Origin: Streptomyces sp. R41
GTDB taxonomy: Bacteria; Actinomycetota; Actinomycetes; Streptomycetales; Streptomycetaceae
Assembly (NCBI RefSeq): GCF_041053055.1
Contig: NZ_CP163443.1
Coordinates: 9,345,001-9,409,000 of the forward strand
Direction: 5' to 3'
Length of the DNA: 64,000 nt
The translations under genes were made by a program, and so were the position numbers. Shown in pieces: positions 1 to 55,145 of the stretch (positions are counted from its first letter, which is position 1; every line of letters starts with the position of its first letter). Under the pieces are notes generated by a model. It had not been told where the DNA came from. It saw only the letters and a program-made list of their open reading frames with translations, and did not search any database.

Positions 1-1058
1 TAATTCCAGGCGACGCCCTCCATGGGGATCTTCGCGTCGGCCTGGTCGGGGACGAGCCCGAGGCCGCCGAAGACGAACTCCACGAGGTATCCGGCGAGCA
101 CGATGGCCGTGTAGAAGGTGACCAGCAGGAAGGCGGTCATGCGCGGCCCGTAGTACTTCCGGTAGATGTTCAGGATCGGCAGGATCAGCAGGTCGGCGAA
201 GATGAACGCGACCACGCCGCCGAAGCTGATGCCGCCCTTCCAGAGGACCACGGCCAGCGGCACGTTCCCGATGGAGCAGACGAACGAGGCGATCGCCACC
301 AGCGGTCCGACGAGGGGGCCGATCAGCTTCGCGGCGAGCGGATGCCCGTCCAGGAAGAGCGAGCTCCAGAACGCGTCGGGCACCCAGGCCGCGATCGCGC
401 CCGCGATCAGCAGACCGATCACCAGGTCCCGCAGGATCGCCGCCCACTCCATGACGAAGACGTGCGAGACCGAGGTGAAGCCGTCGCCGGACAGCAGCCG
501 CCGCAGGAACGACCCTTCCCCTTGGATCGACATGTCCATGGCCGCATGCCCTTCCATGGACCCGGCGATCCCACGCTCCGCCTGCTCCCGGGCCTGCCGC
601 AGCAGCCGCTCGCGCAGGAAGAGCCGGAAGAGCACGGCCAGCAGCACGATCATGACCGGTCCGCCGACGAATTCCGCGAGCGTGAACTGCCAGCCCATCA
701 ACAGGGCGAGGATCACGCCGAGTTCGACCACCAGGTTGGTCGAGGCGATCTCGAACGCCATAGCCGCAGTGAAGTCCGCGCCCTTGCGGAACAGTGAGCG
801 CGCGAGCGCGACGGCCGCGTACGAGCAGGACGAGGACGCCGCCCCGAGCCCGGCGGCAAGCGCGAGCGTCCGGGGGCGGTCGTCGCCGAGCAGCCGTACC
901 ACCGTCGCCCGCCGCACCACCGCCCGGACGACGGCGGACAGGCCGAAGCCGAGGATCAGTGCCCAGGTGATCTCCCAGGTCATCGATCCCGTCAGGGACA
1001 GTGCGTGCAGGATCGCGTCCATCGGTTCGACTTTCTCCCGGTCGGTGGGATCAGGCAT
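1..1058 (-). CDS. YraQ/DUF318-type permease, 3' end beyond the window
   Basis: An open frame on the minus strand begins at an ATG at 1058 and runs off the left edge without a stop (about 352 codons visible). A second in-frame ATG at 1022 (MDAILHAL) is an alternative start. The product has many hydrophobic helices, including an N-terminal pair with the motif LAAGLGAASSSCSYAAVALA around residues 65-85 and a related SIGNVPLAVVLWKGG later, the two half-repeats typical of the YraQ/DUF318 permease superfamily (COG0701) that also holds ArsP-like exporters. The conserved cysteine in SSSCSYAA is present. The substrate is unknown; family members are linked to metal or organoarsenical export, but nothing nearby supports a specific one. 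Confidence 0.8.
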   Translation of the reverse strand, partial: MPDPTDREKVEPMDAILHALSLTGSMTWEITWALILGFGLSAVVRAVVRRATVVRLLGDDRPRTLALAAGLGAASSSCSYAAVALARSLFRKGADFTAAMAFEIASTNLVVELGVILALLMGWQFTLAEFVGGPVMIVLLAVLFRLFLRERLLRQAREQAERGIAGSMEGHAAMDMSIQGEGSFLRRLLSGDGFTSVSHVFVMEWAAILRDLVIGLLIAGAIAAWVPDAFWSSLFLDGHPLAAKLIGPLVGPLVAIASFVCSIGNVPLAVVLWKGGISFGGVVAFIFADLLILPILNIYRKYYGPRMTAFLLVTFYTAIVLAGYLVEFVFGGLGLVPDQADAKIPMEGVAWN

Positions 1059-1443
1059 GACCCGTCGGCAGTTCAGTGACCCTGGCCACAGTCGCTATTG
1101 AGCCGAATGGGTGGCATCGAAGAGGGCATCGTGTTTCAAATCGCCGCAGATCGGGGCCTGATGGGCGCTGAGTGACGCGCGACAGTAACCTTTTGTTTTC
1201 AGCCCCATCGAGCGGGCACCCGCTCATTTGGTTACCCTGTACCAGACGGACAGCTTTTCTGGGTTCCACCCACACCCACGGTCCGTCCCGGGACAAGCCG
1301 GTCACCACGGCCTGCTCTCATACGAGTTACCGGCGCCACCGCGTCCCTAACTGCCTTCGACTCACACCCGAGCGGGCGTCAGGAGACTGGAGCAGACCGG
1401 CCCTGTATGTCCCGAGGGTGACCCGACACATAAGGAGTGCGCG
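1059..1443. other. Non-coding stretch upstream of the permease
   Basis: No convincing gene is seen in these 385 bases; the short open frames here have poor codon use. The stretch should hold the permease promoter (minus strand) and the leader of the small peptide gene (plus strand). A perfect stem-loop with 7-bp arms GAGCGGG/CCCGCTC and a 2-base loop lies at 1210-1225, followed by ATTT. Matching GTAACC and GGTTAC hexamers lie on either side of it near 1186 and 1230. Confidence 0.4.
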
Positions 1444-49132: not shown

Positions 49133-49975
49133 ATGCAAAAGGATCAGCTGCTCACCCGGCGCCGGGCGTTGATCGCCGGCGCCGCCGTTCTGGGCGCGGC
49201 CGGGGCGGGCATGGCCCGCGTCCTGACCGATGAACCGGCAGCCAAGCCGGTGCGGAGTCTCCCTCCGGTCTCGGGCCCCGAGGCGCGCCGCGCCCTCAAG
49301 CCCTCCGCCTATCGCCTCGAGCCGATGGCCGGATACGGTCCCCCGCGCCACACGCCCGCACGGACCGTGGTCAGGCACCAGCCGTTCCTGCGCATGTCGG
49401 GGCGTGGCCACACCATGGTGCTGACCTTCGACGACGGCCCCGACCCGCGCTACACGCCTGCCATCCTGCGCACCCTGCGCAAATACGACGTGCGCGCGAT
49501 GTTCTTCGTGTGCGGGGAGATGGCCGTCGACAACAAGGACCTGCTCGGCGAGATGGCCGACGACGGACACATCGTCGGCAACCACACCTGGACCCACCCC
49601 CTGCTGACGCAGCTCTCGCGCTCGGCGATCCACTCCGAGATCGAGCGCACCTGCGAGGTCATCGACGACGCCTACGGCGAGCCGCCCGTCTGGTTCCGCG
49701 CGCCGTATGGTGCCTGGAACCGGGCGACCTTCCAGATCGGCGCCGAACTGGGCATGGAACCGCTGGCCTGGACGGTCGACTCACTCGACTGGACGACCCC
49801 GGGCACCAAGACCATCGTCCACCGGGTCGAGAGCGGCGCCGCCCCGGGTGTCGTGGTCCTCTCGCACGACGCGGGCGGCGACCGCTCGCAGAGCGTCCGG
49901 GCGTTGCGCAACTATCTGCCGAAACTGCTGGATTCCGGCTACCACATCACCGTGCCGCGCCGGAGATTCACATAG
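49133..49975 (+). CDS. Secreted polysaccharide deacetylase (NodB domain)
   Basis: The 280-residue protein has a double-arginine N-terminal region (LLTRRRALIAGAAVLGAAGA) acting as Tat signal or anchor. The CE4/NodB domain covers about residues 95-275: MVLTFDDGPDPRYTPAILRT with metal/catalytic Asp100-Asp101, metal histidines His151 and His155 in NHTWTHPLL, RAPYGAWN, and the late histidine in VVVLSHDAGGDR. It removes acetyl groups from GlcNAc-containing cell-wall or chitin-like polymers. It is followed within 2 bases by the inverted repeat that bounds the resistance cassette, so insertion occurred right behind its stop codon. Confidence 0.9.
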   Translation: MQKDQLLTRRRALIAGAAVLGAAGAGMARVLTDEPAAKPVRSLPPVSGPEARRALKPSAYRLEPMAGYGPPRHTPARTVVRHQPFLRMSGRGHTMVLTFDDGPDPRYTPAILRTLRKYDVRAMFFVCGEMAVDNKDLLGEMADDGHIVGNHTWTHPLLTQLSRSAIHSEIERTCEVIDDAYGEPPVWFRAPYGAWNRATFQIGAELGMEPLAWTVDSLDWTTPGTKTIVHRVESGAAPGVVVLSHDAGGDRSQSVRALRNYLPKLLDSGYHITVPRRRFT

Positions 49976-49976
49976 A

Positions 49977-50021
49977 GCCCATCACACGATCACGGTTGGG
50001 CTCGTTCGAGGCGACGCCGGC
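49977..50021. repeat. Left 45-bp inverted repeat of the resistance cassette
   Basis: This sequence is the reverse complement of 54364-54408 with three mismatches in 45 bases. It covers the last codons (RRRLERAQP-stop) and the outer end of an IS5-like element. It bounds a 4.4-kb segment with its partner. Confidence 0.9.
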
Positions 50022-50080
50022 GGATGAGGGTGCAGGCGAGGGAGATGAGGGCGTCGTGGCGTTCGGTGCGGCGGCGCCGG
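49990..50080 (-). pseudogene. C-terminal remnant of an IS5-like transposase
   Basis: On the minus strand the frame reads RRRTERHDALISLACTLIRR and continues RRLERAQP to a TGA at 49990-49992. The pattern of a basic, His/Arg-rich tail with LISLACTLI is the typical end of IS5-family DDE transposases. The rest of the gene is absent; upstream sequence passes straight into the glycosyltransferase remnant. Confidence 0.75.
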
Positions 50081-50102
50081 GCACTTTCCCCGGCTCGACG
50101 AT

Positions 50103-50121
50103 CCCGCGTGGTTCACGCGGG
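50103..50121. terminator. Hairpin at the end of the glycosyltransferase remnant
   Basis: Arms CCCGCGTG and CACGCGGG around GTT form a perfect 8-bp stem. The same hairpin occurs at 52833-52851 at the end of the intact gene. Confidence 0.6.
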
Positions 50122-50478
50122 CACTGGCGGCCTTGCTCGGCTGACCGCCTCGAGCAGCGGCTTCGCGGCCACCGGGTTCCGCCGTCGTCGTGGTGCCGCG
50201 CCGCCGTGGTGCACGACGGCGGCCACCCGGCCGAACAGCGCCTGGTGGTTGACCTCGCCGACGGCGAAGCAGTCGTCCCGGTCGTCGATCAGGGCCGGGT
50301 CCGCCCAGCCGCGCCCGACGAGTACGCGGCGGCCCTGCGCGCGGATCGCCACGATGGCCACCTGGGCGATGTCCTTCGAGTCGCGCATGGGCATGCTGCC
50401 GAAACCCACGTACACCGGCGGTGTGCCGGCGTCCAGGAACGCCACCAGCTCGGCCGGGAGCGGGCGTTCGTCCGGCCG
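50113..50478 (-). pseudogene. Truncated second copy of the Rgt-type glycosyltransferase
   Basis: The frame encodes [20 protein letters not shown] ... [20 protein letters not shown], then [20 protein letters not shown] and the tail [10 protein letters not shown]. It aligns closely with the C-terminal half of the gene at 52843-54081, but the first 260 or so residues and about 60 residues after VVHHGG are missing. The loss removes the donor-sugar segment (GTTTTAARAGAPQVVVPQ), so the copy cannot work. The 3' flank (ATCCCGCGTGGTTCACGCGG) is identical to that of the intact gene, and its upstream end joins the helR stop. It marks a duplication around helR. Confidence 0.88.
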
Positions 50479-50481
50479 ACG

Positions 50482-52653
50482 TCAGGAGCTCGTGAGGATG
50501 ACGAGTTGCTGGGTCGCTCGGGTCATCGCGACATAGCGGTCGACCGCTCCTTGGATGCCCTTGCCGAACGCCTCTGGGTCGATGAGGACGACCAGGTCGA
50601 ACTCGAGCCCCTTCGACAGCTCCGGGGTCAGCGACCGGACGCGGGACGTCGCCCGGAATGTGGGATCACCGATGACGCAGGCGATCCCATCGGCATGTGC
50701 GGCGAGCCAGGTGCCGAGGATCGAGCTCAGATCCGAAGCAGATCCGTGTACGACGGGGACGTCGCCGCCGCGGATGGAGGTCGGCACGTTGGCGTCCGGG
50801 AGCACGGCCCGGATGACCGGCTCGGCTTCCGCCATGATTTCTTCCGGCGTCCGGTAGTTGATGCTCAGGGAGGCCAGGTTGATCCGGTCGAGTCCGATCC
50901 GCTCGAGCCGTTCCCGCCACGACTCCGTGAACCCGTGCCTGGCCTGGGCACGATCCCCGACGATGGTGAAGCTCCGTGACGGGCACCGGAGCAGCAACAT
51001 CTGCCACTCCGCGTCGGTCAGTTCCTGAGCCTCGTCCACGACGATGTGCGCGAACGGGCCGGCGAGCAGATCCGGTTCGACGGTGGGCAGTTCGGACTCG
51101 TCGACCAGGCTGACCTGGGCATCCTCGCCGCGCAACATCGTCACCAGGCCTTCGCCGTCGTCACCGTCGGCGCCGGAGTCGGCCGCGGCCTCGATCAGGT
51201 TGTCGACGACCTGCGCCATGCGCTCGCGCTGGGCGGCGAGGGTGGCCTCGTGCCGGCGCTTGCGCCGCGCCGTCTCCGGGTCGCCGAGCCGTTGCCGGGC
51301 CGCGTCCAGGAGCGGCAGGTCGGACACCGTCCAGGCCTGGGGGTCCTCCTTGCGCTGCAGCTTGCGGACCTCGTCGGGGCTGAGCCACGGAGCGCACTTG
51401 CGCAGGTAGGCGGGGACCGACCACAGGTCTGCGACGAGGTCGGCCGCCTCGACCAGCGGCCACGCGTGGTTGAAGGCCGCCAGCAACTCCCTGTTCTGCC
51501 GCAGCGACCTCCGGAGCAGGGCGGGCGAGGCCTCCTCGTCGTGCTTGTCCACCAGGATCGTGAGCAGCTCCTCCCAGACCTGGTCGCGCGCCTCGTTGTG
51601 CGGGGTACCGGGTTCCGCCCCTTCGAACGCCTCGGCCCAGTCGTCGGCGCTCAGCCAGACGTCGGACCAGTGGGTCTCGACGGTCATCCCCTTGGTGGGC
51701 GGCTCCTCGTAGATGCCGACGGCCGCCTCGATCGCCTTGACCATGTCCGCGGACGACTTCAGCCGGGCCACGTCCGGGTCGGTCTCCATCGTTGCCGCTG
51801 CTCCCTCGGAGACGAGGTCCCGCAGGGTGCAGGTCTGCACGCCCTCCTCGCCGAGGCTGGGGAGGACGTCGGCGACGTAGGCCAGGTAGGGCCGGTGGGG
51901 ACCGACGAACAGCACGCCGCCGCGACGGTGAGCGAGGCGAGGGTCGGAGTAGAGGAGGTAGGCGGAGCGGTGCAGCGCGACGACGGTCTTTCCCGTGCCC
52001 GGACCGCCGTCGACGACGAGAGCGCCGCGGGATCCCGCCCGGATGATGGCGTCCTGGTCGGCCTGGATGGTGCCGAGCACGTCTCGCATCCTCGCCGACC
52101 GGTTGCTGCCCAGGCTGGCGATGAAGGCGGACTGGTCGTCGAGCGCGGCGTGCCGTTCAAGCCCGTCAGCGGTGAACACCTCGTCCCAGTAGTCGCTGAT
52201 CCGGCCGCGGGTCCAGCGATACCTGCGGCGGCTCGCCAGACCCATCGGATTGGCGTGGGTGGCTCCGAAGAACGGCTCGGCCGCGGGGGAGCGCCAGTCG
52301 ACCAGCAGCCGACGGCCCACGCTGTCCGTAAGGCCAAGTCGTCCGACGTACACGGGCTCGGGGTTGTCCGCGCCGACCATGTGTCCGAGGCACAGGTCCA
52401 GACCGAAGCGACGCAGTGCGCGCAGGCGAGCGGTCAGCCGGTGGATCTCCGTGTCGCGGTCCATCGCCTGCCGGCCGATGCCGCCGGGCGACCTGCGCTC
52501 GGCATCGAGGCGGTCGGACAGCTCGGCGATCGACTGCTCGAGGCACTCCGCGATGGCCGCGAAGTGCTGCTCATCGCCGGCGATCAGCGTCGGGTCGGCC
52601 TTGGGGGAAAGGCGGTCGGGAAGGTCAAATGCCCTGGTAGTCAGGGGGCTCAC
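50482..52653 (-). CDS. helR: HelR-type, HelD-like RNA polymerase-protecting ATPase
   Basis: GTG 52653 follows GGAG. The 723-residue superfamily 1 ATPase has an N-terminal helical arm (ECLEQSIAELSDRLDAERRS), Walker A in VVDGGPGTGKTVVALHRSAY (about residue 210), a long insertion, Walker B in HIVVDEAQELTDAEWQML, motif III in FTIVGDRAQARHG, and C-terminal motifs SINYRTPEEIM and AMTRATQQLVILTSS. UvrD-like core plus N-terminal arm is the HelD architecture; HelD binds RNA polymerase. The streptomycete HelR branch displaces rifamycin from the enzyme and gives resistance. Assignment to HelR rather than another HelD rests on adjacency to a rifamycin-associated element and Rgt-type gene. It lies 190 bp after that gene and may be co-transcribed. 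Confidence 0.78.
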   Translation of the reverse strand: MSPLTTRAFDLPDRLSPKADPTLIAGDEQHFAAIAECLEQSIAELSDRLDAERRSPGGIGRQAMDRDTEIHRLTARLRALRRFGLDLCLGHMVGADNPEPVYVGRLGLTDSVGRRLLVDWRSPAAEPFFGATHANPMGLASRRRYRWTRGRISDYWDEVFTADGLERHAALDDQSAFIASLGSNRSARMRDVLGTIQADQDAIIRAGSRGALVVDGGPGTGKTVVALHRSAYLLYSDPRLAHRRGGVLFVGPHRPYLAYVADVLPSLGEEGVQTCTLRDLVSEGAAATMETDPDVARLKSSADMVKAIEAAVGIYEEPPTKGMTVETHWSDVWLSADDWAEAFEGAEPGTPHNEARDQVWEELLTILVDKHDEEASPALLRRSLRQNRELLAAFNHAWPLVEAADLVADLWSVPAYLRKCAPWLSPDEVRKLQRKEDPQAWTVSDLPLLDAARQRLGDPETARRKRRHEATLAAQRERMAQVVDNLIEAAADSGADGDDGEGLVTMLRGEDAQVSLVDESELPTVEPDLLAGPFAHIVVDEAQELTDAEWQMLLLRCPSRSFTIVGDRAQARHGFTESWRERLERIGLDRINLASLSINYRTPEEIMAEAEPVIRAVLPDANVPTSIRGGDVPVVHGSASDLSSILGTWLAAHADGIACVIGDPTFRATSRVRSLTPELSKGLEFDLVVLIDPEAFGKGIQGAVDRYVAMTRATQQLVILTSS

Positions 52654-52842
52654 GCAATTAGCTCCGATCTGAGGTCGCTTGCGACCATTGCGCGCGGCAA
52701 GGCGTCCGGACCGGCGTGACGAACGTGGTGGCCATGACGAGCAACGCTCCGTCTGACGTGGACCCCGTGGTCGTTGTCGGTTCAGGTCGCCAGGGCTTGC
52801 AGGTTCTCGGTTCCGGGTCCTGGCTCGACGATCCCGCGTGGT
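52654..52842. other. Gap between glycosyltransferase and helR
   Basis: No gene is seen. It contains a 14-bp palindrome GGTCGCTTGCGACC at 52673-52686, upstream of the helR start, and a loose TTGC/GCAA inverted pair just beyond it. No clear rifamycin-associated element is found here, which favours read-through from the glycosyltransferase promoter. Confidence 0.4.
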
Positions 52843-52851
52843 TCACGCGGG
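52833..52851. terminator. Hairpin overlapping the rgt stop codon
   Basis: Arms CCCGCGTG and CACGCGGG flank GTT; the stop codon of the glycosyltransferase lies in the loop. It may be a partial terminator or mRNA-end stabiliser before helR. Confidence 0.55.
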
Positions 52852-54081
52852 CACTGGCGGCCTTTCTCGGCTGACCGCGTCGAGCAGCAGCTTCGCGGCC
52901 ACCGTCGCCCCGTCGGTCCGGATCGTTCCGGCGACGGCGGTCGCTCGTGCGCGGGTCTCGGGGGTCAGGGCCGCCTTGAGCGCGGCCGACAGGGACTCGA
53001 AGGTCGGAGTCGGACCGTCGTGTGCCGCGCCGATGCCCAACGCGGCCACCCGGCCGGCCCAGTACGGCTGGTCCACGATCTGGGGTACCACCACCTGGGG
53101 CGCGCCTGCCCGGGCGGCCGTCGTCGTCGTGCCCGCGCCGCCGTGGTGCACGACGGCGGCCACCCGGCCGAACAGTGCCTGCTGGTTGACCTCGCCGATG
53201 ACGAAGCAGTCGTCCCGGTCGTCGGTCAGGCCAAGGTCGGCCCAGCCCTGGGCGACGACTGCGCGGCGGCCCTGCGCGCGGACCGCCTCGATGGCCACCT
53301 GGGCGACACCCTTCGAGTCGCGCATGGGCATGCTGCCGAAGCCCACGTACACCGGTGGTGCGCCGGCGTCCAGGAACTCCATCAGCTCGGCCGGCAGCGG
53401 GCGTTCGTCCGGCAGGATCCACGCGCCGGTCTGTACGACGTCGAGGTCCGACGGCTCCCGCCACGGCCCAAGGACCGGGTCCGCCGCCAGCCAAGGCCGG
53501 TCGGTGAAGACGTGGTTGCGGACGTCGTCCACCGGTGGCCGACCGATCGACACCCGGTGAGCGTTGAGCCCTGGGCCGAACAGCGCGTTGTAGCTCAGGG
53601 CGTTCAGGTCCCACAGCGCCCGGTTGTCGGTCATGTCCGGTGGGAACGGCCGGCCCGGCAGCGGGTGCGGCGCGTGGTGCGGCGACGGCAGCATGGTCGG
53701 GAAGTAGCTCACGTACACGAAGTGGATGCCCAGCTTCTCGGCCACCGACTGCGCCCCGGCCACGGCCGGGACCAGGCCGGTCGCCACCACCGCGTCACAC
53801 CCCTCGGCCGCCGCGGCGACCGCCTCGTACTGCGCGGCGACCAGCGCGGCGGCGCGCTGGGGCAGGCCCTCCGGCAGCGGCGTCGTCCCGGTCACCAGCG
53901 TGCGCACCGGCTCGGCGGCCGGCACCAGCTCCACGCCGACACCGGCCAGCAGTTTCGCGAACTCCTTGTCCGGCGGCGCGCACACCCGCACCTCCGCGCC
54001 GAGTGCCCGCAGCTGCACCGCGAGTCCCGCCATCGGCTGGACATCGCCGCGCGATCCATACGTCGACAACAACACGCGCAC
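52843..54081 (-). CDS. rgt: UGT-family glycosyltransferase, rifamycin-inactivating Rgt candidate
   Basis: GTG 54081 has GGGAG 7 bases upstream. The 412-residue GT1-family enzyme starts MRVLLSTYGSRGDVQPMAGL, the typical acceptor-domain opening, and has the donor-binding signature [14 protein letters not shown] and [20 protein letters not shown] with the diphosphate-contacting histidine and glycines, and VPQIVDQPYWAGRVAALGIG. Family members glycosylate macrolides, glycopeptide aglycones and rifamycins. The call as Rgt rests on the rifamycin-associated element 59 bases upstream and the helR gene downstream; on sequence alone macrolide transferase is equally possible. A truncated second copy lies on the other side of helR. 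Confidence 0.8.
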   Translation of the reverse strand: MRVLLSTYGSRGDVQPMAGLAVQLRALGAEVRVCAPPDKEFAKLLAGVGVELVPAAEPVRTLVTGTTPLPEGLPQRAAALVAAQYEAVAAAAEGCDAVVATGLVPAVAGAQSVAEKLGIHFVYVSYFPTMLPSPHHAPHPLPGRPFPPDMTDNRALWDLNALSYNALFGPGLNAHRVSIGRPPVDDVRNHVFTDRPWLAADPVLGPWREPSDLDVVQTGAWILPDERPLPAELMEFLDAGAPPVYVGFGSMPMRDSKGVAQVAIEAVRAQGRRAVVAQGWADLGLTDDRDDCFVIGEVNQQALFGRVAAVVHHGGAGTTTTAARAGAPQVVVPQIVDQPYWAGRVAALGIGAAHDGPTPTFESLSAALKAALTPETRARATAVAGTIRTDGATVAAKLLLDAVSRERPPVPA

Positions 54082-54139
54082 TGAGTGACTCCCAATTTCC
54101 GCAGATTCCGGCCTCGGCCGGTGATTCTGCGGCACGACA

Positions 54140-54159
54140 GGGGCCTTGCGGCAAGCCCC
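54140..54159 (-). promoter_or_regulatory. Rifamycin-associated element (RAE)
   Basis: On the minus strand, towards the glycosyltransferase, this reads GGGGCTTGCCGCAAGGCCCC. It is an inverted repeat (GGGGCTTGC / GCAAGGCCCC) that matches, as I recall it, the 19-bp RAE consensus found ahead of actinobacterial rifamycin-inactivating genes (rph, rgt, rox) and helR, apart from the central base. A TATAGC-like -10 box lies just upstream on the same strand. Its distance to the GTG is about 59 bases. Confidence 0.85.
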
Positions 54160-54182
54160 CCAGTGCGCTATAAGTTGAGAGT

Positions 54183-54208
54183 GGCAAGGAGTGGGTGACC
54201 TCCTTGCC
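54183..54208. other. Perfect stem-loop upstream of the RAE
   Basis: Arms GGCAAGGAG (54183-54191) and CTCCTTGCC (54200-54208) surround an 8-base loop, followed on the plus strand by TTTCCTTTT. Read on the plus strand it looks like a factor-independent terminator facing out of the cassette; on the minus strand it lies upstream of the putative promoter. Confidence 0.6.
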
Positions 54209-54363
54209 TTTCCTTTTGCCGTCCGCCGTGGACGGACAACCTCCTCGCGAAGCGGCGCCGCGCCGCGTACGGCGGTGGCGTCGTCCCAGGAGCATCTCCC
54301 ATGGGCCTGCGGATGCAGCCGCGGAACGAGAAGCTCGCGGAGAAGCGAACCTCCACGGCCTGG

Positions 54364-54408
54364 GCCGGCGACGCCTCGAACGAGCCCAACCATGATCGTG
54401 TGATGAGC
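54364..54408. repeat. Right 45-bp inverted repeat of the resistance cassette
   Basis: Inverted partner of 49977-50021 (42/45 identical). On the plus strand it encodes the transposase end RRRLERAQP followed by TGA at 54393-54395. Only these 45 bases of the element are preserved here. Confidence 0.9.
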
Positions 54409-54414
54409 TCATAG

Positions 54415-54451
54415 GTCCGTGGGCGGAACTTCGAAAGTTCCGCCCACGGAC
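54415..54451. terminator. Strong bidirectional terminator hairpin
   Basis: Arms of 17 bp (GTCCGTGGGCGGAACTT and its exact complement) flank a CGA loop and are followed by TTT on the plus strand. It lies between the cassette's right end and the sortase gene stop at 54477. Confidence 0.85.
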
Positions 54452-54476
54452 TTTCGCCCAGCCAGTCGGGGAACGC

Positions 54477-55145
54477 TCAGCGCACCTCGGCCAGGCGGGC
54501 GAATACGACGACGTTTCCGTCGTAGCCGTGCTGCTTGGAGAAACCGCCTCCGCAGGTGAGGACCCGCAATTCGGGAGTTCCCTTGCTGCCGTACACGCGA
54601 TCACCGGGGAAGTTGTTCTTCGCGAAGACCTCGATGCCGTAGACCTCGAACGACGCGGTCTTCCCGTCCCTGCGCAGGACGTCGATCCGGCTTCCCTTCT
54701 TGAGCGCTCCCAGTCCGTAGAAGACGGCAGGGCCCCGCGTGTTGTCCACATGGCCCACGATCACGGCCGTGCCCTTTTCGCCGGGCGAGACCGCGCCGGT
54801 GAACCAGCCCGCGAGATTCGGGTTGTCAGGGGGCGGCGCGGCGACCCAGCCGTCGATGTCCAGACCCACCGGCATGATCGGTGCATCGACCTGGATCGCC
54901 GGGATCCTGACCCGGTCCGCCAACGAGTACGGCAGCGCGGTCGGCGCGCTCGAGAAGGTACCGCCAGGGGTGCGGCTGTCCGCTGCCGCCGCCGAAGCAG
55001 GCTGCGGAGGGCCCACGTCGAACTCACCGGAACCATTCCGGATGAGTGCCAGGCCGGTCAGCAGAACAAGCGCTATCACGCCCCATGGGGCGCGCTTCTT
55101 CTGCCGCTCCTCCTCTTCGGCCAGCTCGGACGCAAACATTCGCAA
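54477..55145 (-). CDS. Class F-type sortase
   Basis: The 222-residue protein has a short cytoplasmic acidic/basic N terminus, one membrane helix (WGVIALVLLTGLALI) and an extracellular sortase domain. The catalytic set is His132 (VIVGHVDN), Cys198 (LRVLTCGG) and Arg217 (VVVFARLAE). Small size, N-terminal anchor and the compact barrel match class F, the actinobacterial group with poorly known substrates. Start could be ATG 55145 or 55139. Neighbouring genes encode proteins with a C-terminal hydrophobic helix and Arg tail, which may be its clients, although no clear LPxTG motif is seen in them. Confidence 0.88.
   Translation of the reverse strand: MRMFASELAEEEERQKKRAPWGVIALVLLTGLALIRNGSGEFDVGPPQPASAAAADSRTPGGTFSSAPTALPYSLADRVRIPAIQVDAPIMPVGLDIDGWVAAPPPDNPNLAGWFTGAVSPGEKGTAVIVGHVDNTRGPAVFYGLGALKKGSRIDVLRRDGKTASFEVYGIEVFAKNNFPGDRVYGSKGTPELRVLTCGGGFSKQHGYDGNVVVFARLAEVR

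Follow-up and report, generated by a model that had tools for sequence, protein, structure and literature searches.

An operon for Rgt-like and HelR proteins between insertion-sequence ends in Streptomyces sp. R41, and a possible shared −35 role for its rifamycin-associated element

Introduction

The locus described here raises the questions of how two predicted rifamycin-resistance genes came to lie under a single rifamycin-associated element (RAE), between two inverted ends of an insertion sequence (IS), and of how an RAE may sense rifamycin. The locus is found in a stretch of 64,000 nucleotides from Streptomyces sp. R41 (NZ_CP163443.1, positions 9,345,001 to 9,409,000), referred to here as the window, and unless stated otherwise positions are counted from its first letter. 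It consists of a block of 4,434 bp (49976-54409) with the stop codon of a polysaccharide deacetylase gene on its left and a class F sortase gene on its right, and it contains an RAE followed, on the minus strand, by an rgt-like glycosyltransferase gene and helR. The answer we favour, to which as a whole we assign a probability of about 0.78 on the basis of the sequence evidence, is that the block is a transposed operon of an RAE, an Rgt-like enzyme and HelR, in which two promoters, mirror images of each other, would have their −35 region in common in the RAE. The window resembles the known RAE-linked resistance genes of actinobacteria (viz. rgt, rox, helR, arr and rph) in its palindrome, in its gene classes and in the position of the palindrome in the 5′ leader. 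However, it differs from the other RAE systems in having two mechanisms under one RAE and in being a unit bounded by IS ends and a target-site repeat. To what is described for RAE systems we add two −10-like hexamers at mirror positions and a hairpin on the outward side.

The RAE and the mirror-image hexamers of its leader

The RAE of the window lies at 54140-54160 (centre 54150), and its palindrome, GGGNCTTGCNGCAAGNCCC, is present in the leader of a rifamycin-resistance gene. Both strands match it, one perfectly and the other with 1 mismatch, where chance would give 0.23 matches if up to 3 mismatches are allowed. The 20-bp inverted repeat placed at 54140 by the first-pass annotation is thus seen on both strands, and the glycosyltransferase gene, which was stated to begin 59 bases downstream, starts 58 nt from the palindrome when its GTG start is used. 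A strict RAE pattern matched 69 of the 197 genomes of the class, and the reversed control pattern matched one of the 197. In the window genome the strict pattern has two sites, both of them before rgt genes, and its control has none; a looser pattern finds the same two sites along with one control match.

Within the palindrome there are two opposed −35-like hexamers, TTGCGG on the plus strand (54146-54151) and TTGCCG on the minus strand (54149-54154), and at an offset of 21 from the RAE centre a −10-like hexamer is found on each side. The gene-facing (sense) hexamer is CAGAAT (54124-54129, minus strand), and it is mirrored by the outward-facing (antisense) hexamer TAAGTT (54171-54176, plus strand). 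If TTGCNG within the RAE is read as the −35 element, then the spacers on both sides are 19 bp long. Two other assignments were considered and rejected. In one of these, the upstream element was read as a sense promoter with TATAGC as its −10, but the positions that never vary agree with TANNNT read from the opposite strand at the mirror offset, and in the mycobacterial-looking loci described below nothing but these TANNNT positions is kept. In the other, an antisense spacer of 17 bp with TATAAG as the −10 was replaced, on the same evidence of invariant positions, by one of 19 bp with TANNTT.

The conservation of these hexamers was first counted in 128 leaders of rgt and helR loci, which reduce to 111 distinct leaders, mostly from Streptomyces, and in this count the orientation was picked by similarity to the module. 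Counted from the RAE centre, the layout of the leaders consists of a hairpin at about −53 to −33, followed by TCAACNTATAGCGCAC (−28 to −13) and, beyond the RAE, by TCGTGCCGCAGAATC (+13 to +27). Of the 111 leaders, 107 have the outward TANNNT and 108 have CANNNT on the side facing the gene (the remaining three having GAGAAT, twice, and TAGGAA), and a gene-facing TANNNT was found in none of them. In three rgt loci (L120, L131 and L165), the upstream half of the leader, inclusive of the outward hexamer and the hairpin, appears by eye to have been replaced exactly at the RAE border, and a fourth leader (L192) lacks the outward hexamer at the usual offset.

A recount in which no orientation was chosen was made on two further sets of loci. 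The class sample comprised 50 RAE loci, viz. 30 given by the class search and 20 picked from its listed matches, and the genes behind these RAEs (identified by Pfam for 10 of them, and by tblastn or first residues for the others) include helR, rgt, rox-like FAD monooxygenases, rph-like PPDK_N proteins and arr. In 49 of these 50 loci, TANNNT is present on one side and a hexamer of the form ANNNT preceded by a base other than T on the other side, both exactly at offset 21, while over 20 other nearby offsets TANNNT occurs at 1 of 2000 positions. The non-consensus hexamer faces the gene in 28 of the 29 loci where helR or rgt sets the direction. In the exception, L225, there is only a short helR match and both hexamers are lost; its gene and its promoters seem to have decayed together. 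The second set came from the genus of genome G312, which is mycobacterial-looking by its genes, and where a looser pattern matched 81 of 118 genomes and its reversed control 12 of 118. After two loci already in the class set were dropped from a sample of 30, the mirror pattern was found in 27 of the remaining 28, the exception (L283) being without a recognisable resistance gene, and the background for TANNNT was 0 of 1120 positions. The gene on the weak side was recognised in this genus by its first residues only, and none was recognised in L273, L274 and L283; the architecture is found here before arr-, rox- and helR-type genes. Further, the bases around the outward hexamer vary in this genus while TANNNT itself persists.

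The outward strand also bears a hairpin resembling an intrinsic terminator (54183-54217, plus strand; stem 54183-54208, followed by a T-rich tail), which is located at the predicted antisense start. It was the one site found in a scan in which 0.2 such sites are expected, and it folds with −17.1 kcal/mol (z −2.46). In the 111 leaders, where 60 simple letter shuffles of each leader served as the folding control, the mean z of the hairpin region is −3.0 and 75 leaders fall below −2. Pairing was assessed by an alignment-free comparison of a leader's own arm with the arms of other leaders: the upstream stretch pairs at 9 of 9 positions with its own arm in 50 of the 111 leaders, against about 4 with the arm of another leader. 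In the class sample, such complete pairing occurs in 6 of 48 leaders, versus 0.2 with other arms, and z is below −2 in 17 of 48. As the hairpin is lacking in the mycobacterial-looking and several other leaders, it is to be regarded as a trait of a lineage, whereas the mirror hexamers are general. Pairing of the upstream hairpin with the RAE, as an attenuator, was rejected by eye, since the hairpin arms vary and the RAE does not.

How the RAE may sense rifamycin

In the mechanism proposed, the RAE would act as the shared −35 region of two divergent promoters that are mirror images of each other. In the absence of the drug, the outward promoter, with its consensus −10 and a terminator within about 35 nt, would occupy the polymerase, and the weak gene-facing promoter would stay quiet. 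If the drug hinders the polymerase, then the balance would be tipped toward the operon, and the candidate steps for this tipping are instability of the arrested complexes, their removal by HelR, or an RAE-binding protein. A more far-reaching proposal, which we offer tentatively and at less than even odds, is that the RAE is primarily a shared palindromic −35 and not the site of a regulator, so that for helR, rgt, rox, rph and arr alike it would be RNA polymerase itself that senses rifamycin. In that reading, which is to the same degree tentative, the outward consensus promoter would make a tiny terminated RNA in many Streptomyces, and the gene-facing promoter would be kept weak. Because a polymerase sensor would need no regulator gene, the RAE leader would travel with any resistance gene.

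According to the passages on helD in a 2022 review (PMC10719064), the RAE is required for induction by rifampicin and overlaps the −35 of the downstream promoter of Mycobacterium smegmatis helD. According to PMC6529629 (mBio 2019), the M. smegmatis genes most strongly induced after 20 min of rifampicin include arr genes, a homologue of rox and the helicase gene helD. The relevant passages of PMC12802891 (2026) leave the mechanism of the RAE to be elucidated. The same passages describe, for Bacillus subtilis, a stronger antisense promoter that silences helD until rifampicin arrests the polymerase there, and they remark on the 19-bp spacers of the antisense promoters. The RAE leader is similar to this helD/pps dual-promoter alarm in that a consensus-like antisense promoter would oppose a weaker sense promoter, and in its 19-bp antisense spacer; by sequence, the antisense −10 is nearer to consensus than the sense −10, with TANNNT on one side only in 49 of the 50 and 27 of the 28 loci and a non-consensus gene side in 28 of the 29 loci with helR or rgt. 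However, the promoters of the B. subtilis alarm converge, with 39 bp between their starts as given there, and no convergent pair is found in the RAE leader, whose hexamers would diverge from a shared palindromic −35, so that its predicted twin promoters could not both be occupied.

Several points weigh against the shared −35 reading (those concerning the enzyme and the IS ends are given with them below). A consensus promoter scan of the window leader, covering spacers of 16-18 bp, found no promoter; as the 19-bp spacer lies outside this range, the promoter claim rests on conservation. A polymerase arrested on the outward promoter should also block the shared −35, and competition alone gives no induction; because the −35 would otherwise stay blocked, the model needs arrested complexes that leave fast, help from HelR, or an RAE-binding protein. 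In the reported mapping of M. smegmatis helD (PMC10719064, passages as above), the upstream start is about 20 bp before the RAE, a position close to the antisense start predicted here, and both helD promoters are called sense-oriented in the corresponding part of PMC12802891. In B. subtilis, induction was lost once the promoters were moved closer.

The strongest alternative, which we consider quite possible while keeping it short of an even chance, is that the RAE is an ordinary operator for a rifamycin-responsive regulator, in which case the outward hexamer would be a part of its extended site and no promoter. The strong palindromy of the RAE is as expected of an operator, the mirror positions would also suit a dimeric protein, the promoter scan was negative at the window leader, and an RAE-binding protein is proposed in the cited passages of PMC10719064 and PMC12802891. 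However, both hexamers fit the −10 pattern and show a fixed asymmetry that follows the direction of the gene, TANNNT is retained in the mycobacterial-looking genus where its surroundings change, and many of the Streptomyces-centred leaders (75/111 with z below −2) have the hairpin and a T-rich stretch on the outward strand. If the shared −35 reading is adopted, the question of RAE sensing is reduced to testing one hexamer, viz. the outward −10.

The Rgt-like glycosyltransferase and HelR

The rgt-like gene (52843-54081, minus strand) encodes a GT-B glycosyltransferase of 412 aa with the domains PF06722 and PF03033; its start is taken as the GTG before VRVLLSTYGS, although a longer open reading frame (ORF) with an upstream ATG is also possible. 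Rgt proteins act by glycosylation of rifamycin, and the window enzyme would likewise add a sugar to the drug. The first-pass annotation identified this UGT-type enzyme as Rgt. What stands of this is an Rgt-like enzyme, RAE-linked in the tree described below and apart from the vancomycin Gtf enzymes; what does not stand is the name Rgt itself, since its 539 bits to NF000354 are under the curated Rgt cut-off of 800, a result that also counts against our overall reading. This cut-off was reached in none of the 131 genomes of the genus, where the best match has 708 bits, and a direct scan of the second rgt copy of the window genome gave 710 bits. A grouping with macrolide enzymes, which had been named as evidence that would speak against Rgt, is not seen in the profile scores: the macrolide models give at most 46.5 bits, versus 539 for Rgt, and the activator-dependent glycosyltransferases 57 bits.

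It is unlikely that the glycosyltransferase acts on another substrate, such as a glycopeptide-like aglycone, and shares only ancestry with Rgt. The missed cut-off would fit this explanation, as would the fact that the best solved relative of the enzyme is GtfB, at 490 bits. However, in a tree of 55 rows (made by a quick method, with 22 of its 51 inner branches weak, and including three Gtf rows and no macrolide enzyme), the 52 Rgt-side rows, 8 of them without an RAE core, stand opposite GtfA, GtfB and GtfD with a support of 100, and the window enzyme is grouped with three enzymes linked to helR and with a copy from a plasmid (91% identity). Further, of 83 rgt loci sampled from named genomes and plasmids, 72 have an RAE core or near-core at a distance of 71-101 nt ahead of the gene, and helR follows directly downstream in 39, in one of which (L144) it is only 37% identical to helR.

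The gene following it, helR (50482-52653, minus strand), encodes a predicted RNA polymerase recycling/protection ATPase of 723 aa, which matches NF041254 with 1295.2 bits over residues 9-721 and passes the curated NCBIfam cut-off of 750. A second HelR model gives 418 bits, HelD_MYCSM 377 and HelD_BACSU 96, and it is from these profile scores that HelR is distinguished from HelD. The protein aligns with M. smegmatis HelD over residues 36-720. The earlier proposal of a HelD-like ATPase of the HelR type on the same strand as the glycosyltransferase is borne out by the 1295 bits, compared with 377 for mycobacterial HelD. In the operon, HelR would strip the remaining drug from RNA polymerase.

To the left of helR, i.e. 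behind it in transcription, a second copy of rgt has left decayed pieces from its interior and its 3′ part (50064-50476, minus strand; pieces 50089-50174 and 50181-50476), which are 90.6% and 95.3% identical to the intact window rgt and 91-92% identical to a plasmid rgt (L202). Because decayed rgt counterparts are also found in L012 and L122, a stage with the order rgt-helR-rgt probably preceded transposition. Elsewhere in the window genome there is a second RAE-rgt locus (contig positions 9850842-9852336; L002, L011), and two ORFs directly upstream of its leader resemble, by eye, an IS5-type transposase.

Probable insertion of the operon as one unit

The inverted repeats at the ends of the block (49975-50021 and 54364-54410) are alike at 44 of 47 positions, which extends the 45-bp repeats (42/45) reported earlier as encoding the ends of an IS5-like transposase. 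This 47-nt pair is the longest of 44 inverted pairs within 49500-54900, the runner-up having 34 nt at 71%. The left remnant covers 49976-50073 (about 98 bp, minus strand, inner border approximate) and the right remnant 54364-54409 (about 46 bp, plus strand, an inverted copy of 49976-50021), and in both of them the transposase 3′ end points outward. Both arms code for the same C-terminal end of a transposase in the same frame, viz. RRTERHDALISLACTLIRRRRLERAQP followed by a stop codon on the left and RRRLERAQP followed by a stop codon on the right. The counterpart of this end in an intact element (L074) is RRTELHDAFMSLACSLICWRRLNKPDS, and the PF13340 and PF01609 proteins of that element, encoded in two ORFs, constitute an IS5-type pair. 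Directly outside both arms is the 5-bp direct repeat CATAG (49971-49975, which includes the deacetylase stop codon, and 54410-54414).

In a search of 392 genomes of the genus, the left end had matches in 171, many of them partial, and the matches covering its first 98 bp start exactly at 49976 with identities of 73-85%. A second IS end is present 874-897 bp away in 8 of the 19 listed loci other than the window, and these intact copies are the IS5 elements with the same end for which the first-pass annotation had suggested a search. In four of the eight, an identical 5-bp repeat is found outside both ends, viz. CATAG in L074, CTCAG in L075, CTAAG in L080 and CTATG in L088.

The site of insertion was examined using the flanking genes, a polysaccharide deacetylase (49133-49975, plus strand, PF01522) and a class F sortase (54477-55145, minus strand, NF033748, 204 bits against a cut-off of 166). 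A search for the deacetylase in 61 genomes matched 55 and gave 29 listed loci besides that of the window itself. In 26 of the 29 the deacetylase is directly followed by the convergent sortase gene at a distance of no more than about 140 bp, and neither helR nor rgt is matched in these 26 loci. In the other three, the sortase lies 1.1 kb off (L044), the locus stops at a contig border (L045), or no sortase is seen (L069). Because the deacetylase and the sortase are adjacent without an insert in 26 of 29 relatives' loci, the block is to be interpreted as an insertion, and in view of the end repeats and the target-site repeat, transposition as one unit is the simplest account of it. Most likely, the block moved as a unit into the gap between these genes. 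The RAE, rgt and helR would have been carried between two inverted IS5-type copies and transposed together with duplication of 5 bp, and both IS copies would later have decayed to one outer end each, due to which the unit would now be unable to move by itself. The earlier view that the unit was once mobile and was inserted right after the stop codon of the deacetylase is therefore supported by the CATAG repeat and by the empty sites, which it had proposed to look for.

A composite transposon, or mobile insertion cassette, of the IS5 type carries its passenger genes between two ends of one IS in inverted orientation. The block is like such an element in its inverted ends of one IS around passenger genes and in its 5-bp repeat. 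However, it differs in that both of its ends are the transposase 3′ end and in that no transposase is left; where a composite transposon would have at least one intact transposase, the block has only remnants. Three results speak against transposition of the unit: a perfect 5-bp repeat is found in only four of the eight intact IS copies, the other four being without one; these IS ends are absent from the 14 remaining long matches to rgt-helR (L012-L025, examined together with flanks of 1.5 kb); and an exact search with 38 bases of the IS end gave no match in a named genome collection, outside which the window's own genome possibly lies. As no second IS-bounded unit was seen in those searches, the claim of mobility leans on one insertion. 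That two independent decayed IS copies flank a resident operon by chance, with a fortuitous CATAG match and no transposition of a unit, is highly improbable, for although this IS end is common (171/392 genomes) and a 5-bp match arises by chance about once in 1000, the 26 relatives' loci have no insert and CATAG stands exactly at both ends of the element, with the repeat length of four of the eight intact copies and the very sequence found in L074.

Recurrence of the rgt-helR operon

Among the 131 genomes of the genus, HelR exceeds its cut-off in 88 and an Rgt match at E ≤ 1e-110 is present in 52; in 27 of the 88 helR-bearing genomes, helR is directly preceded by an rgt gene of the same strand, with a gap of less than 1 kb. 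The hosts of the sampled rgt loci include Kribbella, Rhodococcus and Nonomuraea. The RAE-rgt-helR arrangement is also present in Streptomyces sp. NBC_01237, on a linear plasmid of 1.6 Mb, and in Embleya sp. NBC_00896, on a linear record of 3.1 Mb, and a lone RAE-rgt is found on a 998-kb linear plasmid typed as mobilizable. Of the earlier suggestion that drug inactivation and target protection are combined in one unit, the shared operon of RAE, Rgt-like enzyme and HelR holds; however, this operon is recurrent in actinobacteria and is not peculiar to the element. In some loci rgt is reduced: between the RAE and helR, L031 and L032 retain a match to no more than the first 34-38 codons of rgt, and no rgt match of more than 25 residues remains in L026, L027, L030, L034, L036 and L040.

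Three further loci may be mentioned. In L035, whose contig is shared with L160, two nearby RAE modules face apart, one before rgt and the other before helR. In L192, on a contig labelled as Bosea sp. CRIB-10 (NZ_FOKP01000016.1), a relative of rgt has an RAE and an outward hairpin, with flanks of 66% GC, which could possibly reflect transfer across phyla, or contamination. In L229, an RAE at 1509 precedes an ABC transporter pair (ORF 379-1305, minus strand, and the one downstream), consisting of a DrrA-like ATPase, as judged by eye, and a protein with the Pfam domain ABC2_membrane; this may possibly be a rifamycin exporter under RAE control.

Conclusions

The two IS ends, the target-site repeat and the empty site provide sequence evidence for the transposition of an operon that combines drug modification with target protection. 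If RNA polymerase is indeed the sensor at the RAE, as tentatively proposed here, this would explain how such resistance cassettes work wherever they land. Further, as the same architecture stands before arr-, rox- and helR-type genes in the mycobacterial-looking genus, an answer to how the RAE senses rifamycins would matter for intrinsic rifamycin resistance as a whole.

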